DNA of 64,000 bases, taken from assembly GCA_017502525.1 (NCBI GenBank), contig JAFVUV010000003.1:124001-188000 (forward strand), written 5' to 3'. Source of the DNA: Clostridia bacterium. GTDB lineage: Bacteria; Bacillota; Clostridia; Christensenellales; Borkfalkiaceae. The notes under the pieces were generated by a model. That model worked only from the letters and a program-made list of their open reading frames with translations, was not told where the DNA came from and did no database searches. Both the position numbers and the translations under genes were made by a program. Numbering within the stretch: position 1 is the stretch's first letter; the number at the start of each line of letters is the position of its first letter. Below are positions 3,836 to 59,622 of this stretch, one piece after another.

Positions 3836-5059
3836 ATGATGCAAAAAATTGTAATTGTCGGTGGTGGTGCGGCTGGTATGATAGCAGCCTTTTCCGCGGC
3901 GAATAACGGTAAATCCGTTACCTTAATAGAAAAAAATGAAAAATTAGGAAAGAAGTTATATATAACAGGCAAAGGTAGATGTAACGTTACCGCTAACGTT
4001 AACGTTCCTGACTTTATGTTAAACGTCGTTTCTAATCCTAAATTCGTTTATAGTGCAATAAATAATTTTACACCGCAAGATATGATGAGTTTGCTTGAAA
4101 ATCACGGTCTAAAGTTAAAAACCGAACGAGGCAACCGTGTTTTTCCCGAAAGTGATAAATCAAGTGACGTTAATAAAACGCTAGAAAAAGCTTTGATTAA
4201 TAGTGGTGTTGACATTATATTGAATACAAAAGTTTTAAAAATCTTAGTTGAAGATAATGTTGTTAAAGGTGTTTTGACAAACAATGGTGAAATTCCATGT
4301 GACACAGTAATCGTTTGCACGGGTGGTGTTTCTTATCAAACAACGGGGAGCGATGGGGATGGGCTTAAATGGGCTGAAACATTTGGGCACGAGATAATCC
4401 CTGTTAAACCTTCTTTGGTGGGAATAGAGCTTAAAGGTCAAGATTTTATTGAAGCGCAGGGTTTATCATTAAAAAACGTTTCGTTAACGGCAAAATTTGA
4501 AGATAAAACTGTTTTTACGGAATTTGGTGAAATGTTGTTTACTCATTTTGGCGTTTCTGGTCCAATCGTCTTATCTTGTTCGGCTAAAATTAATAGGTTA
4601 GATTTAAATAAAATTAAACTTGTAATAGACTTAAAACCCGCGCTAGATTTTGATACTTTAGATAAAAGGTTGTTGCGTGAGTTTAAGGAAAACAACACAA
4701 AAATAATTTCAAACGTAATGCGTAGTTTATTGCCAAAAGCATTAATTGAAATCGTTTTATATCGAGCAGGCGTTCCTTTAGATAAAAATTGTAGCGAAAT
4801 TAGTGCGTTGGAGCGTCAATCGATAATTAAAACCTTAAAATATTTTGAATTTTGCGTTAAAAAATTGCGTCCTATCGACGAGGCTATCGTAACTGCAGGC
4901 GGAATAAACGTTAAACAAATTAACCCAAAAACTATGGAAAGTAAACTTATTAAAAATTTGCATTTCGCGGGCGAAGTTTTAGATATTGACGCTTTTACGG
5001 GCGGATTCAACTTGCAACTTGCGTTTGCAACAGGCTACGCCGCAGGAAAAAATTGTTAA
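3836..5059 (+). CDS. NAD(P)/FAD-dependent oxidoreductase, HI0933/YhiN (BaiN-like) family
   Basis: A cytosolic flavoprotein of 407 residues. The N-terminus holds the dinucleotide-binding motif GGGAAGMIAAF (about residues 8-18), followed by the family marker GKGRCNVT (about 45-52). The C-terminus has FAGEVLDIDAFTGGFNLQ and FATGYAAG, the second FAD contact of HI0933-like proteins. The physiological reaction is not established for most members; one clostridial homologue, BaiN, was reported to act in bile-acid dehydroxylation, but this cannot be inferred here. In many Clostridia this gene lies just upstream of cmk, as it does here. The ATG at 3839 is an equally possible start. Confidence 0.85.
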   Translation: MMQKIVIVGGGAAGMIAAFSAANNGKSVTLIEKNEKLGKKLYITGKGRCNVTANVNVPDFMLNVVSNPKFVYSAINNFTPQDMMSLLENHGLKLKTERGNRVFPESDKSSDVNKTLEKALINSGVDIILNTKVLKILVEDNVVKGVLTNNGEIPCDTVIVCTGGVSYQTTGSDGDGLKWAETFGHEIIPVKPSLVGIELKGQDFIEAQGLSLKNVSLTAKFEDKTVFTEFGEMLFTHFGVSGPIVLSCSAKINRLDLNKIKLVIDLKPALDFDTLDKRLLREFKENNTKIISNVMRSLLPKALIEIVLYRAGVPLDKNCSEISALERQSIIKTLKYFEFCVKKLRPIDEAIVTAGGINVKQINPKTMESKLIKNLHFAGEVLDIDAFTGGFNLQLAFATGYAAGKNC

Positions 5060-15121: not shown

Positions 15122-15989
15122 CTATAATCAAACGTACAACGAATATTTAAAAATATTTGAGAATAATCTCTCCATCGTTTTTAATTCATTATCAAAAACC
15201 GCGCCCGAAACTATTAAAAATGCAATGACTTACGCAGTTGTTGATGGCGGGAAAAGAATTAGACCAGTTTTATCTTTGGCATCTGCAAAATTGGTTGGAT
15301 TAAATTTTGATGAAATTAAAGAATTTTCAGTCGCTATTGAGTGTATACACTCTTATTCTTTGGTTCACGACGATTTGCCTTGTATGGATAATGACGATTA
15401 TCGCCGTGGAAAGTTATCAACGCATAAAAAGTTTGGGGAAGCGAACGGTGTGCTTGCCGGTGATGCATTATTAAATTTTGCATTTGAATTGTGTTTAAAT
15501 AAACCAAATTTTAACGCTAATGACGTAAAAGCTTTAAGGTTTTTATCTGAGTGTGCAGGTTATTGCGGTATGATTGCTGGCCAAGTTTTGGACCTTGAAA
15601 GTGAAGGTGCAAATGCGGACAAAGATTTGTTGTATAAAATTTTTGAAAATAAAACGGCCAAACTTATTATTGCTCCGCTAATTATTCCATCAATATTAAA
15701 AGATGGTAAATATTATAAAGAATTATATGAGTTTGGTTACAATTTAGGAATATTATTCCAAATTACCGATGATATCATTGACGTTGAAGGTTCGCTTGAA
15801 GAAATAGGAAAAACACCTAATAAAGATGCTGAATCTAATAAGTTGACTTCTGTTAAGGTGTTTGGACTAACTGGAGCAAAGGAAAAAGCAAATTTACATT
15901 ATCAAAAATGTAAAAATGCTTTACAGAGTGTTCCTAATAGTGAATTTTTACTAGAGTTCGCCGATAAAATTTACAAAAGAAAGAAATGA
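15111..15989 (+). CDS. ispA: Polyprenyl (farnesyl/geranylgeranyl) diphosphate synthase
   Basis: Chain-elongating prenyltransferase that condenses IPP with allylic diphosphates. From the ATG at 15111 it has 292 residues; a GTG four codons upstream is also possible. The first aspartate-rich motif is HDDLPCMDNDDYRRGK with the two-residue insertion typical of bacterial FPP synthases, and the second is FQITDDIIDVEG. GGKRIRP near the N-terminus binds IPP. It complements IspH encoded in the same window. It overlaps folD by 11 bases and tlyA by 4. Confidence 0.93.
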   Translation: MLSNYNQTYNEYLKIFENNLSIVFNSLSKTAPETIKNAMTYAVVDGGKRIRPVLSLASAKLVGLNFDEIKEFSVAIECIHSYSLVHDDLPCMDNDDYRRGKLSTHKKFGEANGVLAGDALLNFAFELCLNKPNFNANDVKALRFLSECAGYCGMIAGQVLDLESEGANADKDLLYKIFENKTAKLIIAPLIIPSILKDGKYYKELYEFGYNLGILFQITDDIIDVEGSLEEIGKTPNKDAESNKLTSVKVFGLTGAKEKANLHYQKCKNALQSVPNSEFLLEFADKIYKRKK

Positions 15990-53209: not shown

Positions 53210-54616
53210 TTATCTAATTTTTTGTAACAAAACTAGAGTCTCGACGTGCTTGGTTTGCGCAAACATATCGAATGGACGTACTAATTCAATGCTATATCTT
53301 GGCTCGTAATTTTCAGATTTTTTAATTTCACCATTGATAACTTCTAAGCTACCTACCAAAAGTCCTACGTCGCGCGCTAAGGTTGACGGTTTACAAGAAA
53401 CGTAAACAACCTTATCCGCACCACTTTTAATAATCGCATCAATAACTTTTATATCGCAACCTTTTCTGGGCGGATCTAATACAACGCATATTTTTGAATT
53501 TTCTTTACGTTCTTTTTCTATTATACCCGGTAGTAAATCTTCACATTTCCCTAGATAATTAGTTATTTTATTTTGCAAGCCGTTTTGAATAGCAAGTGCG
53601 TTTGCACATTCTACCGCTTCAGCAACTATTTCTATGCCAAATGCCTTTTTTGCATTTTTAGAAATTAATGCCGTCATAAGACCTGCGCCACTATATGCAT
53701 CAATTACTACAGTTTGGTTGTCAGCATCAACAATATCCCTAACCGTGCTATAAAGTTTAGAGCAAACGGAATTATTTACTTGCATAAAACTTTGAACGCC
53801 ACTTTTATATTTTACACCAAGCATATCGCCTAAAAATTCCTTAGGTCCGCACACGTGAATAAATTTAGTTCCGTAAATAACGTTTGTCGCCTTATCGTTA
53901 ACGTTAAGATAAAAACTAAATTTATATTTTACGTGCTCTTTTAGTATTTCTATTAATCTTTTTAAGCCACGCAAATTTTCACTTAAAACTACGGCTGTTA
54001 TAATAAGATTTCCTTTTATTTCTTTAACCGTAATTTCACGAAGTTCTCCACTATTAGTTTGTTCGTTATAACCACGAATATCTAATTCTTCAACAAATTG
54101 CTTAAATGCTTTTATAATACTTTCAGTCCAAAGCGCGTTTATTAAACAATCATCTATAGGCACTACCCTATGTGAATTTTCCGCATAAAAACCAATAAGC
54201 GTACCTTTGGGGCTATCAACTACGGGTAATTGCAATTTATTTCTATATCTAAAACAGTTATCACCTTTAACCGTAGGCTTAACTTCAACGTTTAATGCTG
54301 CAATTTTTTTAAAACACGTGGTAATTGTATCTTCTTTTATTTTTAGCTGATTTATATATTTAACGTGTTGTAGTTGGCATCCACCACACTTTCCAAATAC
54401 GGGGCAATCTGGTCTAATACGCATTTCTGCAGGCGTTAATACTTCTAAAACTTTGCCGTAAGCACATTTAGAAGTTACCTTTAAAACTTTGAATCTAATT
54501 TTTTCGCCAACCAAAGCAAAAGGCACGAATATTATCGTACCATCTTGTTTGATAACGCCCTCTCCATTTGCGCCAAGTCCCACAACTAGGCCAACTCTTT
54601 CCTCATTTTTAACCAT
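53210..54616 (-). CDS. 23S rRNA (uracil-C5)-methyltransferase, RlmD/RlmCD family
   Basis: 468 residues. An N-terminal TRAM domain (about 1-60) precedes the iron-sulfur cysteines CPVFGKCGGCQLQH. The SAM-binding part has VIDAYSGAGLMTALI, and the catalytic core has VLDPPRKGCD and VVYVSCKPSTLARD, whose Cys attacks uracil C6. In Gram-positives one enzyme of this family (RlmCD) modifies U747 and U1939; which sites apply here cannot be read off. Last gene of its transcription unit. Confidence 0.93.
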   Translation of the reverse strand: MVKNEERVGLVVGLGANGEGVIKQDGTIIFVPFALVGEKIRFKVLKVTSKCAYGKVLEVLTPAEMRIRPDCPVFGKCGGCQLQHVKYINQLKIKEDTITTCFKKIAALNVEVKPTVKGDNCFRYRNKLQLPVVDSPKGTLIGFYAENSHRVVPIDDCLINALWTESIIKAFKQFVEELDIRGYNEQTNSGELREITVKEIKGNLIITAVVLSENLRGLKRLIEILKEHVKYKFSFYLNVNDKATNVIYGTKFIHVCGPKEFLGDMLGVKYKSGVQSFMQVNNSVCSKLYSTVRDIVDADNQTVVIDAYSGAGLMTALISKNAKKAFGIEIVAEAVECANALAIQNGLQNKITNYLGKCEDLLPGIIEKERKENSKICVVLDPPRKGCDIKVIDAIIKSGADKVVYVSCKPSTLARDVGLLVGSLEVINGEIKKSENYEPRYSIELVRPFDMFAQTKHVETLVLLQKIR

Positions 54617-54628
54617 CTCTTTAGTAAC

Positions 54629-55162
54629 CTATTTTAATATTTTACTTAAATAATAATCAGCAACTTTTCGCACAACCACGATAAATCTATCATAAACCAC
54701 GTAAAACACTATGGCAATTCCGCCCACTAAATATATTACGTAATTTTGTAAATTAAACGGGATTCCGTCCAGAACACCCTGCATTATGTTAATATAATAA
54801 AAATACAATCCATACGCTACAGCGACAAACCATAGCAGACCGATTATAAATCCAACGATTTTGTTAAAATTTTTATCCATCAACTTATATTTTATCAAAG
54901 GATAAATTCCAAAGAACGTAAAATAAGCGGGAAACACTAATGATAACAAATTAAAACCACTAAATAAAAAGCCTATAACACCGCCAATGAGATACGCAAG
55001 GGCGCTTGCCTTAAACGATTTATAATAAAGTGGCAATATCGTAAAAATTGAACCTATAACAACGGCAAAAACATCCGTCGCTTCAATATATGCACCTAGA
55101 GTCAAGAATATTGAAGTTAGCGAAGCAGATATAGCCGAGATTGCAATTAATTTACTTCTCAT
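54629..55162 (-). CDS. Polytopic membrane protein of unknown function
   Basis: 177 residues with five or six hydrophobic helices and few charged residues except near the loop KLMDKNFNK (about residues 91-99) and the C-terminus. Small-residue-rich helices (ISAISASLTSIFLTLGAY, then YLIGGVIGFLFSGF) resemble ECF S-component-like membrane proteins, but no substrate motif is seen. It shares one base with the J-like gene before it, so the two are translationally coupled. Function unknown; it may be the membrane partner of the two upstream proteins. Confidence 0.7.
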   Translation of the reverse strand: MRSKLIAISAISASLTSIFLTLGAYIEATDVFAVVIGSIFTILPLYYKSFKASALAYLIGGVIGFLFSGFNLLSLVFPAYFTFFGIYPLIKYKLMDKNFNKIVGFIIGLLWFVAVAYGLYFYYINIMQGVLDGIPFNLQNYVIYLVGGIAIVFYVVYDRFIVVVRKVADYYLSKILK

Positions 55163-55764
55163 TACCTACAACACATAGTGCAAAGCAAATCCATACAACA
55201 CCAAGTTGCGCAGAACGATAAACACCCGTTGGTGTCACCACCCATTTGCCTATTATCTACTGACTCAGCATTATTATACATATTGCCAGATTTGAATTGC
55301 CTTTCGTTAAACTCCATCTTTTGTTTTAACTTTGTTAATTCGTCAGCATACTTCGCGTTATGCGGTTCCATAGTTAAAGCAATTTCAAGTTGTTTTTTGC
55401 TTTCGTTAATCCAATTTTTTTTGTAAAAAACAACTGATTGCAAATAATGCCACTCCGCATTTCTATCAGTAATATCATCTAAGAGTTGTTGTGCTTTAGT
55501 GATATCGCCATTTTTGATATAATTTGTTACGTCTGAAAAGTCAATTTCAACACGTCCGTTTTCAGTATTAGAAATTTTTCTAGCTTCGGTTATTTCGTGA
55601 TATGCAGCTTCAAGCTTGGTTAAGTTTTTAGCCGCTTGGTTTCCAACTTCCCCCTCACAAAATCTTTCGTTAGAATATTTTGCTTTCAATTCTTTATACG
55701 CATTTTCAATTTCTTCATCAGTTGCGTTTTCAGTTAAATTTAATATTTTATAGTATTCTTGCAT
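55162..55764 (-). CDS. J-domain-like protein with TPR-like middle and cysteine-rich tail
   Basis: 200 residues. The first 60 look like a DnaJ domain (YYKILNLTENATDEEIENAYKEL, read in parts, and LEAAYHEITEARK), but the HPD tripeptide needed to stimulate DnaK is absent; KYSNERF stands there. Residues 80-145 form paired helices of TPR type (KKQLEIALTMEPHNAKYADEL). The last 20 residues contain seven cysteines (CLSFCATWCCMDLLCTMCC), suggesting metal binding or lipid attachment. It overlaps the DUF5685-type gene by 25 bases and the membrane-protein gene by 1, indicating joint synthesis. Its role is unknown. Confidence 0.75.
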   Translation of the reverse strand: MQEYYKILNLTENATDEEIENAYKELKAKYSNERFCEGEVGNQAAKNLTKLEAAYHEITEARKISNTENGRVEIDFSDVTNYIKNGDITKAQQLLDDITDRNAEWHYLQSVVFYKKNWINESKKQLEIALTMEPHNAKYADELTKLKQKMEFNERQFKSGNMYNNAESVDNRQMGGDTNGCLSFCATWCCMDLLCTMCCR

Positions 55765-56609
55765 TTCTTATTCTCCATTATTCGCTTAGTTTCCATTTTA
55801 AGCCCAAAAATAAAAACGTTATCAGTTAAATCGTGATTAAATTTATATTTAAGTTCTTTTGATAATCTTTCAATATCATTCAAAAGTGTTCCGAATATAA
55901 AAATCAGTTCACTTTGCTTTAATTGTATTAAAGTTTTTTTATCAGCAACGTCATTATAAGCGTTAACAAATACGTTAAAATTATTCCCTTTTATATCTTT
56001 ATCAAAATCGTCGAGCGCATCAATTAAGTATATCCATTTGCCTAAATTATATGCTAGTTCACCAACTTGTTCGGTAAATTTCTCTTCGCCAATAAGCTCG
56101 CGAACTACTTCTTTCATCATATTTCCAAACGGGTCTGCAGACATGTCAACACTGTTGCACCCCATTTTTTCATACTTTAAAAGTTCATCATATCTATTTT
56201 TTACAATTGAATCCAAATTGGGCTCGTGTTTTTTTGCTTTTTTATAACAGGATTTAAAAAACGCCCTTTTTGCACGACCTTTATTATTATCAACGACGTC
56301 GTCGTTTAATTTATGATAAGCAAGGATAACGTTAAGGGCCGCAATTCTATCAGTAAGCGAATCTGGTATAGCAACAGGTCTTTTTCTAATATGATGAATT
56401 ATACAGCGTTGGCGGGTTATTTTCACGTCTAAATCGCAAAGATTATGTAACAATACTGACAAAAAAGTCAAATCGTAATTTAAAACCAGTCTACCTTTAT
56501 TTCCGCAACACTTACCAATGCCCTTACAAAGCCCACAATACATAGCCTTATAAAGCACGGTATCTTTTACGTACATATTAGGAATATCCGTTTTAACGTA
56601 TCCAAACAT
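55740..56609 (-). CDS. DUF5685-type protein
   Basis: 289 residues, mostly helical. The N-terminus FGYVKTDIPNMYVKDTVLYKAMYCGLCKGIGK, read in parts, followed by NYDLTFLSVLLHNL, is characteristic of DUF5685 as I know it. Cysteines at 25, 28, 34 and 35 could bind a metal. Two aspartate-rich patches, DDVVD (103-107) and DALDDFDKD (197-205), lie in predicted helices, as in all-helical prenyl-transferring enzymes. No function is established. The gene overlaps the J-like gene and lies one base after trpS. Confidence 0.75.
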   Translation of the reverse strand: MFGYVKTDIPNMYVKDTVLYKAMYCGLCKGIGKCCGNKGRLVLNYDLTFLSVLLHNLCDLDVKITRQRCIIHHIRKRPVAIPDSLTDRIAALNVILAYHKLNDDVVDNNKGRAKRAFFKSCYKKAKKHEPNLDSIVKNRYDELLKYEKMGCNSVDMSADPFGNMMKEVVRELIGEEKFTEQVGELAYNLGKWIYLIDALDDFDKDIKGNNFNVFVNAYNDVADKKTLIQLKQSELIFIFGTLLNDIERLSKELKYKFNHDLTDNVFIFGLKMETKRIMENKKCKNTIKY

Positions 56610-56610
56610 A

Positions 56611-57615
56611 CTATCCTCTTTTTCTTAAAACTAACCCAACTTTTTTATAAACTTTATTTAGCGTGCGGTATGCTAATTTTTCCGCTCTTTCAGCTCCGTT
56701 TTTAAGAACTTCATCTAAATATGCTTTATCGCCTAGCAATCTATTTTTTTCTAATCTAATCGGCTCAATTTTTTCAGTAACAACTTCGCCAACAGCTAGC
56801 TTAAATTCGCCGTAACCTTTACCCGCAAATTCTTTTTCCGCTTGTTCAAAAGTTTTATCGGTAAACGCACAATAGATTGATAATAAGTTACTTATGCCTG
56901 GTTTTTCAGGGGAATAAACGATTTTGTCATCGCTGTCAGTAACTGCACGCTTAAACTTTCTTAATACCGTTGCGGGGTCATCGTCCATAGATATAAACGC
57001 ATTTAAATTAGCATCTGATTTGCTCATTTTTCGTTCTGGTTCAGCAAGACTCATTACCCTTGCTGCCGATTTACCAATATAGCCTTCAGGAATTTTGAAC
57101 GTTTCGCCAAAACGGTTATTAAAACGAATAGCCAAATCCCTTGCTAATTCTAAGTGTTGTTTCTGGTCTGCACCGATTGGCACGAGTTCGGTTTGATACA
57201 ATAAGATATCAGCAGCCATTAATACGGGATAATCCATTAATCCCATATTAATATTGTCTTCGTGTTTTTTACTTTTATCCTTAAACTGAGTCATGCGAGA
57301 AAGTTCGCCAGGATAGCAAATCGTATTAAGCACCCATGCAAGTTCTGTATGGGCTGAAACGTGTGATTGCGCAAATAAAATAGATTTTTCCGGGTCTATA
57401 CCGCAAGCCAAATATAACGCTGCTAGTTCGTAAGTATTTTTTCTTAAAACTGCAGGGTCTTGTTTTACGGTAAGCGTATGCAAATCGGCAAGCGCAAATA
57501 CTCCGTTATAATCGTCTTGAAGTTTCTTAAAATTACGAAGTGCACCCAAATAATTACCTATAGTTAATATTCCGCTTGGTTGAATTGCACTAAATAATAT
57601 CTTCTTATCTTCCAT
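56611..57615 (-). CDS. trpS: Tryptophanyl-tRNA synthetase
   Basis: 334 residues, class I. The HIGH-equivalent is in QPSGILTIGNYLGALR (Thr-Ile-Gly-Asn), and the KMSKS loop is EPERKMSKSDANL. GADQKQHLELARD lies between them. No T-box or leader peptide is visible before it, only 32 bases separating it from thrC. The window also carries tRNA-Trp. Confidence 0.95.
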   Translation of the reverse strand: MEDKKILFSAIQPSGILTIGNYLGALRNFKKLQDDYNGVFALADLHTLTVKQDPAVLRKNTYELAALYLACGIDPEKSILFAQSHVSAHTELAWVLNTICYPGELSRMTQFKDKSKKHEDNINMGLMDYPVLMAADILLYQTELVPIGADQKQHLELARDLAIRFNNRFGETFKIPEGYIGKSAARVMSLAEPERKMSKSDANLNAFISMDDDPATVLRKFKRAVTDSDDKIVYSPEKPGISNLLSIYCAFTDKTFEQAEKEFAGKGYGEFKLAVGEVVTEKIEPIRLEKNRLLGDKAYLDEVLKNGAERAEKLAYRTLNKVYKKVGLVLRKRG

Positions 57616-59214: not shown

Positions 59215-59622
59215 TTAATCAACGTACTTTAATACAAACTCTGGCAAATCTTCTTTAGAAGCGCTGCAAGTTACTACGAATTTAACGTCGTAATCTTTTT
59301 CAAGCTTTTCCATTGAAGCAAAAATTTGTTCTAAATCAGCAAGTTTTTTACCCGTAATTCTTGCAATACCATCAATATATATGTATTCGTTGTCGCCGTT
59401 TGCAGCAACTATTCCCTTAATAAAACCGTTCAAAGCATCTGCACATTTAATGTCAAAACCAGTAATGTCTAAAAATCTGATAGTGTATTTAATATCGTGT
59501 GTATATCTTTTGGTATCAGTTATAAATATAACGTGCCCTTTCGCCTTTTCAATAGCGCCGTTGGCACATTCTATAATTGCCTTAGTTTTGCCTGTCCCTT
59601 TGGGTCCGTAAATAATTTTCAT
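59215..59622 (-). CDS. Small P-loop NTPase-like protein
   Basis: 135 residues opening directly with a Walker A motif, IIYGPKGTGKT (residues 3-13). A hydrophobic strand ending EYIYIDGIAR (about 83-92) may be Walker B, with Asp as the acidic residue. The protein is about a minimal RecA-like half fold. Similar short proteins in Clostridia are sometimes labelled twitching-motility or ATPase proteins without proof. It has its own promoter (59661-59689), an AGGAGG ribosome-binding site and a terminator, so it is monocistronic. Function unknown. Confidence 0.8.
   Translation of the reverse strand: MKIIYGPKGTGKTKAIIECANGAIEKAKGHVIFITDTKRYTHDIKYTIRFLDITGFDIKCADALNGFIKGIVAANGDNEYIYIDGIARITGKKLADLEQIFASMEKLEKDYDVKFVVTCSASKEDLPEFVLKYVD

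Follow-up and report, generated by a model that had tools for sequence, protein, structure and literature searches.

A conserved gene trio of Clostridia: DUF5685 with a predicted isoprenoid-synthase fold, a cysteine-tailed J/TPR-like protein and a membrane protein

We analyzed a stretch of 64,000 nucleotides (nt) from the genome of a Clostridia bacterium of the order Christensenellales (assembly GCA_017502525.1, contig JAFVUV010000003.1, positions 124,001 to 188,000; hereafter the window), in which three overlapping minus-strand genes encode a DUF5685 protein (Pfam family PF18937), a J-domain-like protein with a TPR-like region and a cysteine-rich C-terminal tail (hereafter the partner), and a small polytopic membrane protein. 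We find that the trio is one conserved module, a conclusion that is well supported by gene order. DUF5685, which has had no assigned function so far, is predicted to adopt the class I isoprenoid-synthase fold, and the membrane protein the fold of an energy-coupling factor (ECF) transporter S component. Our preferred explanation, which we regard as quite possible and still short of probable, is that DUF5685 may prenylate the cysteine tail and thereby anchor the J/TPR adaptor at the membrane.

Conservation of the trio

We compared two sets of loci. The broader set contains 101 loci, namely the window and 100 loci (L061-L160) picked by hand from PF18937 matches. For the order we mostly took a single locus from each genus, and its weakest matches were left out of locus reading. 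The close set contains 80 named loci of the nearest relatives. The sets overlap, with L061/L191, L068/L225 and five distant loci counted twice. Within the order, 166 of 200 genomes carry PF18937, as do 33/299 and 45/398 genomes of two phylum samples; Thermotoga maritima is its sole carrier among 14 control genomes.

A partner homologue accompanies DUF5685 in 96 of the 101 broader loci, and in 92 of these it starts at most 125 nt before or 87 nt after the DUF5685 end; wider gaps occur in L120 (302 nt) and L117 (1,255 nt), and the other two loci are the irregular L094 and L078, described further below. The five loci that lack it (L154, L156, L157, L158, L160) all contain distant DUF5685 members. 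Behind the partner, a homologue of the membrane protein is found in 71 of the 101 loci, its earliest possible start lying 349 nt before to 277 nt after the partner end. No such homologue was detected in 25 loci that have the partner, so the pair is more constant than the trio; another small membrane protein comes after the partner in several of these 25. As a separate observation, a small protein with a GRYGxDxL-like N-terminal stretch replaces the S-like membrane protein after the J gene in seven loci (L141, L142, L143, L145, L119, L130, L134), and it ends in a zinc-ribbon-like CxxC...CxxC in L142, L143 and L145.

Of the 80 close loci, 73 have the partner next to DUF5685 and 67 have the complete trio side by side; in eight of the 13 trio misses about 600 nt or less of contig remains. 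The initial annotation of the window had described the three genes as overlapping by 25 and 1 bases, with which the coordinates of the open reading frames (ORFs) agree (25 nt between the DUF5685 and J-like genes, 1 nt between the J-like and membrane-protein genes). Exactly 25 nt of overlap are shared by 23 of 74 named loci with measurable spacing, and the second and third genes again overlap by 1 nt in 11 of 67 named loci; with the conserved gene order, this recurrence makes the arrangement more than a product of chance. A model of the cysteine tail (A7, 36 rows, partly built from the genomes then searched) finds 83 of the 200 order genomes, all 83 of which are on the list of 166 DUF5685-positive genomes. 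One or more of these hits probably arose by chance, G122 being the case in point (its frame has 54 codons and lies on a different contig). Since A7 misses many divergent tails, it supports co-occurrence and does not measure it.

The genes flanking the trio behave differently. Homologues of trpS are found in 72/80 close and 51/101 broader loci, those of rlmD in 60/80 and 14/101; the two are neighbours by descent, and rlmD is tied to the trio by position only. Gene order, whose conservation across Firmicutes had been put forward as a check on a joint function, is kept far beyond the genus, and independent occurrence of the genes was not seen in our sample, as the partner and membrane-protein counts and the 83/83 tail genomes with DUF5685 illustrate. 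PADLOC returned no defence-system match at E<=0.01 for any trio protein.

The cysteine tail and the predicted folds

The window partner scores 26.6 bits with Pfam DnaJ, just below the cut-off of 27.8, and gives weak TPR matches. All 26 members of its family that we scanned match DnaJ (best 6.6e-21) and 22 of them TPR_2, at E<=0.1. Its C-terminus, GCLSFCATWCCMDLLCTMCCR, contains seven cysteines in 21 residues, and the earlier description of a J-like protein with a TPR-type region and a seven-cysteine tail therefore holds. Across the family the last 35 residues carry 4-12 cysteines (median 9), compared with a mean of 0.76 elsewhere in the protein. At least five cysteines in the last 35 residues are present in 95 of 96 partners versus 14 of 1979 other ORFs of at least 100 amino acids (one of the 14 being a fusion of DUF5685 with the tail in L154), and in a second set in 77 of 77 partners versus 4 of 1478 other ORFs, the background being six-frame ORFs of the loci with spurious ones included. 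A cysteine is found among the last four residues of 93/96 broader partners and of 77/77 close-set matches, and a common form at the very end of the protein is CxxCxxLxCADCCCECMGGDLIxCC. ORFs in L150, L155 and L159 retain the tail and have no recognisable J domain, which makes the tail the more persistent part of the partner; in L154/L271 a cysteine-rich tail is fused to DUF5685 itself. The HPD motif is absent from the window partner and from 77/77 close-set matches and is present in 45 of 94 aligned broader partners. Lacking HPD, the J domain in the window has probably lost Hsp70 stimulation.

An AlphaFold2 model of DUF5685 calculated from 71 sequences (mean predicted local distance difference test score, pLDDT, 92.6; predicted TM-score 0.90) was compared with the PDB. 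The best Foldseek matches are prenyl diphosphate synthases (top 9jr6, E 3.5e-3, probability 1.00). The best VIA-align match is a C45 isoprenyl diphosphate synthase (Z 16.7, r.m.s.d. is 3.1 Å over 242 residues), and 49 of the best 50 rows are prenyl/isoprenoid synthases or prenyltransferases by title (Z is still 14.5 at rank 50), the remaining row being ACP-HEPS2 (9a4c), whose title is silent on its class. MoeN5 (Z 16.1 over 226 residues) and a Thermotoga geranyltranstransferase (Z 15.2) are among the 49. VIA-align cautions that Z values of about 13-14 are within reach of helical proteins even when no true match exists, and we therefore place weight on the uniform match list and on the motifs described below. 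Eukaryotic-type protein prenyltransferases are not among the Foldseek and VIA-align rows listed, which excludes nothing.

In an alignment of 197 DUF5685 entries (190 distinct sequences, fragments included), C25, C28, C69, D103, D107, E147, D197, D201 and D205 are invariant wherever they are covered (194-196 of 197). The three cysteines occur together in 195 entries, D103 and D107 in 196, and D197/D201/D205 in 194; all exceptions are fragments with gaps. In the predicted model D103xxxD107 and D197xxxD201xxxD205 each end a helix (Table 1), with three helices between the two. The first and second aspartate-rich motifs (FARM and SARM) of isoprenyl diphosphate synthases are arranged likewise, three helices apart. 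DUF5685 thus resembles the trans-isoprenyl diphosphate synthases (PF00348, IPR008949) in its predicted all-helical fold and in two aspartate motifs on corresponding helices. It differs from them in a first motif of the form DxxxD, in which the second Asp is not fixed, in the CxxC helix and C69 hairpin, in its cysteine-tailed partner, and in the isopentenyl diphosphate (IPP)-binding motif GGKxRP, found by a loose pattern in just 2 of 193 DUF5685 entries versus 16/16 canonical enzymes of relatives (extracted from 16 of 30 loci fetched). The absence of GGKxRP suggests that DUF5685 is probably not a chain-elongating synthase; judged from model and motifs, it resembles an active enzyme of this fold that does not elongate chains. 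The genome's only match to a canonical trans-isoprenyl diphosphate synthase lies in the same window (15207-15893, + strand; PF00348, E 1.5e-51).

DUF5685 has no PF00348 match at E<=1 in Pfam, and a search of PDB sequences with its profile returned designed helical repeats and chance matches. A single-sequence PDB match to octaprenyl-diphosphate synthase (E 0.22) was taken as a lead and not as evidence.

The CxxC of DUF5685 is located in the first helix of the model (residues 14-35), and C69 just past the strand formed by residues 64-67. A mean-field coupling analysis of 193 sequences (effective number 168), in which the helix/hairpin question was chosen by us, ranks pair 23-62 first and pair 29-67 eleventh, and pair 22-101 (rank 121) hints that the CxxC helix lies near the first aspartate motif. 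Invariant columns cannot couple, and these pairs speak for positions neighbouring the cysteines only. The two stronger couplings suggest that the CxxC helix packs against the C69 hairpin, and together with pair 22-101 they make a putative Cys3 site close to the cavity plausible.

The AlphaFold2 model of the membrane protein (pLDDT 93.1) is matched best in VIA-align by TmRibU (5kbw; Z 11.8, r.m.s.d. is 3.4 Å over 156 residues). ECF transporter chains fill the first nine rows listed, and the tenth drops to Z 5.8; the best Foldseek match has E 0.071 and probability 1.00. From this model we predict a six-helix ECF S-component fold, in line with the early assignment of the last gene as a polytopic membrane protein. 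The predicted fold is shared with the ECF S components RibU and ThiT and with DUF2232, which 5 of 31 relatives match weakly. Unlike the S components, the window protein has no Pfam match at E<=1, and the one EcfT-family gene of the genome (PF02361) is on another contig. An AxxxA near the N-terminus is seen in 38/41 close relatives (set A4) and 17/31 relatives of set A5, this being a common pattern for which no control was run.

Taken together, the conservation supports well the initial proposal of a joint, undescribed, membrane-linked multi-protein system; as to its role, the predicted folds favour lipid or prenyl chemistry over a generic assembly.

A prenylation mechanism and its rivals

Two kinds of neighbouring gene in other lineages bear on function. 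Six loci have an Hsp70 gene next to DUF5685 or the partner (L098, L119, L130, L134, L141, L284; Pfam E 1.4e-215 or lower in L098, L134 and L284), and all six partners carry HPD. We did not count as adjacent a fragment of Hsp70 that lies on the opposite strand at the outer edge of L106. Polyprenyl synthetase genes are found by Pfam near DUF5685 in L154, L156 and L158. In L154/L271 this gene is the second after the DUF5685-tail fusion. L156/L273 and L158/L274 share the order cysteine-rich-ended protein, Hsp70, one protein, Hsp70, polyprenyl synthetase, with DUF5685 further on, on the other strand, and preceded by a small unassigned protein on that other strand. One small gene separates the cysteine-rich-ended protein from the first Hsp70 in L274; the protein between the Hsp70 genes of L273 (235 amino acids) has a C-terminal part that is J-like by eye and no Pfam match; and a DUF2232 protein (over the cut-off) comes after the polyprenyl synthetase in L156. 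L278 contains a protein with a cysteine-rich end, a polyprenyl synthetase split in two (profile search), a protein that resembles DUF2232 and scores under the cut-off, and DUF5685.

We also observed that each of the polyprenyl synthetase clusters of L273, L274 and L278 is headed by a short protein (at 2043-2504, 2332-2760 and 4622-4987, respectively) whose C-terminus is rich in cysteine and in which no J domain is recognised; two of these three clusters also contain Hsp70 genes.

In the mechanism that we propose, the aspartate motifs of DUF5685 would hold Mg2+ and ionize an allylic prenyl diphosphate, and the prenyl group would be passed to the C-terminal cysteine thiols of the partner in place of IPP addition. 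The three invariant cysteines of DUF5685 could form a zinc site activating the acceptor thiol, as zinc does in other thiol-alkylating enzymes such as protein farnesyltransferase and betaine-homocysteine methyltransferase. The lipidated tail would then recruit the J/TPR adaptor to the membrane and may hold it there next to the ECF-S-fold protein. HPD-bearing adaptors could in turn bring Hsp70 to the membrane, the Hsp70 gene adjoining the module in some lineages; in the window's clade, where HPD has been lost, the role of a lipid-anchored adaptor alone would remain. The complete scheme, in which an isoprenoid-synthase-fold enzyme with a zinc-cysteine site would carry out bacterial cysteine prenylation and a J/TPR adaptor would bring Hsp70 to an ECF-S-fold partner at the membrane, is put forward as a tentative one.

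The nearest precedent is ComQ, an enzyme related to the trans-isoprenyl diphosphate synthases (trans-IDS), which prenylates a residue second to fourth from the C-terminus of the adjacently encoded peptide ComX (PMC5331326). Like ComQ (with ComX), PalQ and the P domain of ChrPC, DUF5685 would belong to the isoprenoid-synthase superfamily. ComQ is encoded directly before ComX and its target lies near the C-terminus, just as the DUF5685 gene precedes a cysteine-tailed partner with a cysteine among the last four residues (93/96); in contrast to the characterised members of this kind, the tail conserves cysteines and not tryptophan, the carrier is a J/TPR protein, and a membrane protein of S-like type is present. 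Archaeol is attached to a C-terminal lipobox cysteine in archaea, according to a 2026 review (PMC13290415). MoeN5, the moenomycin prenyltransferase whose fold DUF5685 shares in the model, is a non-elongating transferase with a small-molecule acceptor, and we know of no cysteine partner for it.

Several points weigh against cysteine prenylation. Foldseek gives no DUF5685 match at E<=0.001, and the query-normalised TM-scores of its best 50 rows are 0.30-0.57. When DUF5685 was aligned with the 16 canonical synthases by hhalign, the second motif fell on SARM in register and with a weak score (probability 5%, P 0.0076), which alone is not significant; the argument for superfamily homology is made from predicted structure and motifs. 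Tail sequences differ much between clades. A profile search found no Hsp70 or polyprenyl-synthetase gene in any of the 80 close loci, so these links come from other clades, and profiles run on the stretch covered in L157 and L160 find neither a tail partner nor a prenyl neighbour nor an Hsp70 gene. According to the same review, the characterised trans-IDS-like prenyltransferases all target tryptophan and not cysteine (PMC13290415), and a cysteine-directed bacterial member would thus be new among them. ComQ has a degraded SARM, a pseudo-SARM (PMC5331326), and the full SARM of DUF5685 fits a small-molecule reaction equally.

A small-molecule reaction is the strongest competing explanation, and we consider it rather unlikely: DUF5685 would form a terpenoid or polyprenyl product (as a cyclase or head-to-head type enzyme), the J/TPR protein would do no more than tether the enzyme to the membrane, and the S-like protein would move or store the lipid. 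Squalene/phytoene-type and terpene synthases have two full aspartate motifs, as does DUF5685, and S components usually bind small ligands. The polyprenyl synthetase genes near DUF5685 (L154, L156, L158 and, in two pieces, L278) and the DUF2232 proteins of L156 (over the cut-off) and L278 (below it) would fit as well. Such a reaction leaves unexplained, however, the persistence of the tail, the tail-DUF5685 fusion of L154 and the three invariant cysteines.

These cysteines would fit a metal or Fe-S system, in which the tail and the CxxC...C of DUF5685 would exchange iron, zinc or copper with J/Hsp70 help, modelled on the role of HscB/HscA in Fe-S transfer, and the prenyl fold would serve as a scaffold. 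The 4-12 tail cysteines and the six loci with an adjoining Hsp70 gene also agree with it; the five invariant aspartates at the places of a diphosphate/Mg2+ site and the polyprenyl synthetase neighbours do not, and we judge such a system improbable. Slightly less probable again is that the tail is S-acylated by another enzyme, as in the eukaryotic cysteine string protein (CSP/DNAJC5), with DUF5685 acting in a separate step and the operon forming a chaperone adaptor unit. A J domain combined with a cysteine-rich part is the architecture described for CSP/DNAJC5, and the partner profile picks up DNAJC5 as one of many J domains. The DNAJC5 matches are J-domain matches of a sort shared by many J proteins, though, and DUF5685 is left unexplained. 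CSP/DNAJC5 is eukaryotic and palmitoylated, whereas the partner has a TPR-like part in between and its cysteines at the extreme C-terminus, and has lost HPD in the window's clade. Finally, three housekeeping genes sharing an operon with trpS and rlmD without common function, as the recurrence of these two in 72 and 60 of 80 close loci might suggest, is very improbable and was already disfavoured, given a partner in 96/101 and a membrane protein in 71/101 loci against trpS in 51/101 and rlmD in 14/101, DUF5685 in 83/83 tail genomes, and the L154 fusion.

The literature searched, with most subscription journals and all preprints outside it, names DUF5685 in one paper, as a list item, and does not name PF18937 or DUF2232; among the papers listed by searches, no title or opening of an abstract describes a system of J domain, cysteine tail, prenyl group and Hsp70, which is not proof of absence. 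If prenylation of the tail by DUF5685 is true, it would represent a bacterial S-prenylation route derived from a chain-elongation fold and tied to chaperones, present in most sampled genomes of a gut order; its range would cover at least this order of gut Clostridia, plus scattered other lineages. It would also be a prokaryotic counterpart, of unrelated fold, of eukaryotic CC/CXC tail prenylation and of the cysteine string co-chaperone. On that reading, three hypothetical proteins would become a directly testable enzyme, substrate and membrane partner.

Locus context and minor observations

The interval 53210-56609 had been annotated as the trio. It does contain the three genes and, 12 nt behind them, a fourth gene that is not a member of the module: rlmD, encoding a 23S rRNA methyltransferase (TIGR00479, 326 bits versus a cut-off of 184). 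Upstream, trpS lies 1 nt from the DUF5685 gene. The features are collected in Table 1.

Table 1. Features of the DUF5685 locus, in window coordinates
Feature	Position	Strand	Basis
DUF5685 protein (PF18937), 289 amino acids, predicted class I isoprenoid-synthase fold	55740..56609	-	Pfam E 8.2e-71; AlphaFold2; PDB fold matches
DUF5685 first aspartate motif D103-D-V-V-D107, end of helix 84-108	56289..56303	-	alignment; helix limits from model
DUF5685 second aspartate motif D197-xxx-D201-xxx-D205, at the end of helix 180-200 and in the next short helix	55995..56021	-	alignment; model
DUF5685 stretch with codons of invariant C25, C28 (CxxC) and C69	56403..56537	-	alignment
J-like / TPR-like / cysteine-tail protein, 200 amino acids, no HPD	55162..55764	-	Pfam DnaJ 26.6 bits (cut-off 27.8); relatives' matches
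Cysteine-rich C-terminal tail of J-like protein, 7 Cys in last 21 residues	55165..55227	-	translation, tail alignment, counts
Polytopic membrane protein, 177 amino acids, predicted ECF S-component fold	54629..55162	-	AlphaFold2; TmRibU 5kbw match; weak DUF2232 in relatives
rlmD, 23S rRNA methyltransferase, outside module	53210..54616	-	NCBIfam TIGR00479; neighbour counts
trpS, upstream neighbour, inherited neighbourhood, outside module	56611..57615	-	Pfam tRNA-synt_1b; neighbour counts

The genome containing the window comprises 1.46 Mb in 41 contigs. Its closest named relatives found are Clostridia metagenome-assembled genomes (MAGs), many from ruminants and chickens, including Candidatus Borkfalkia, which NCBI places in Christensenellales, and a Christensenella sp.

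Some loci show irregular reading frames. In L094 the length of the DUF5685 and J ORFs is a start-codon artefact, and an apparent DUF5685-J fusion in L078 crosses a run of unknown residues (a scaffold gap) and was left out of the evidence. In-frame stops interrupt DUF5685 matches in MAG contigs at L167, L182, L190 and L193, two near the end and two internal, as assembly errors or decay. Near DUF5685, ORFs in L282 (50-871) and L283 (119-343) contain repeated FLASLRGIET / FQILIGILAT units and look like repeat arrays, perhaps CRISPR, translated as if they were protein. Elsewhere in the window, a 135-amino-acid P-loop/AAA-like protein is encoded at 59215-59622 on the minus strand, with weak matches only (best ATPase_2, E 1.9e-5, under the cut-off).

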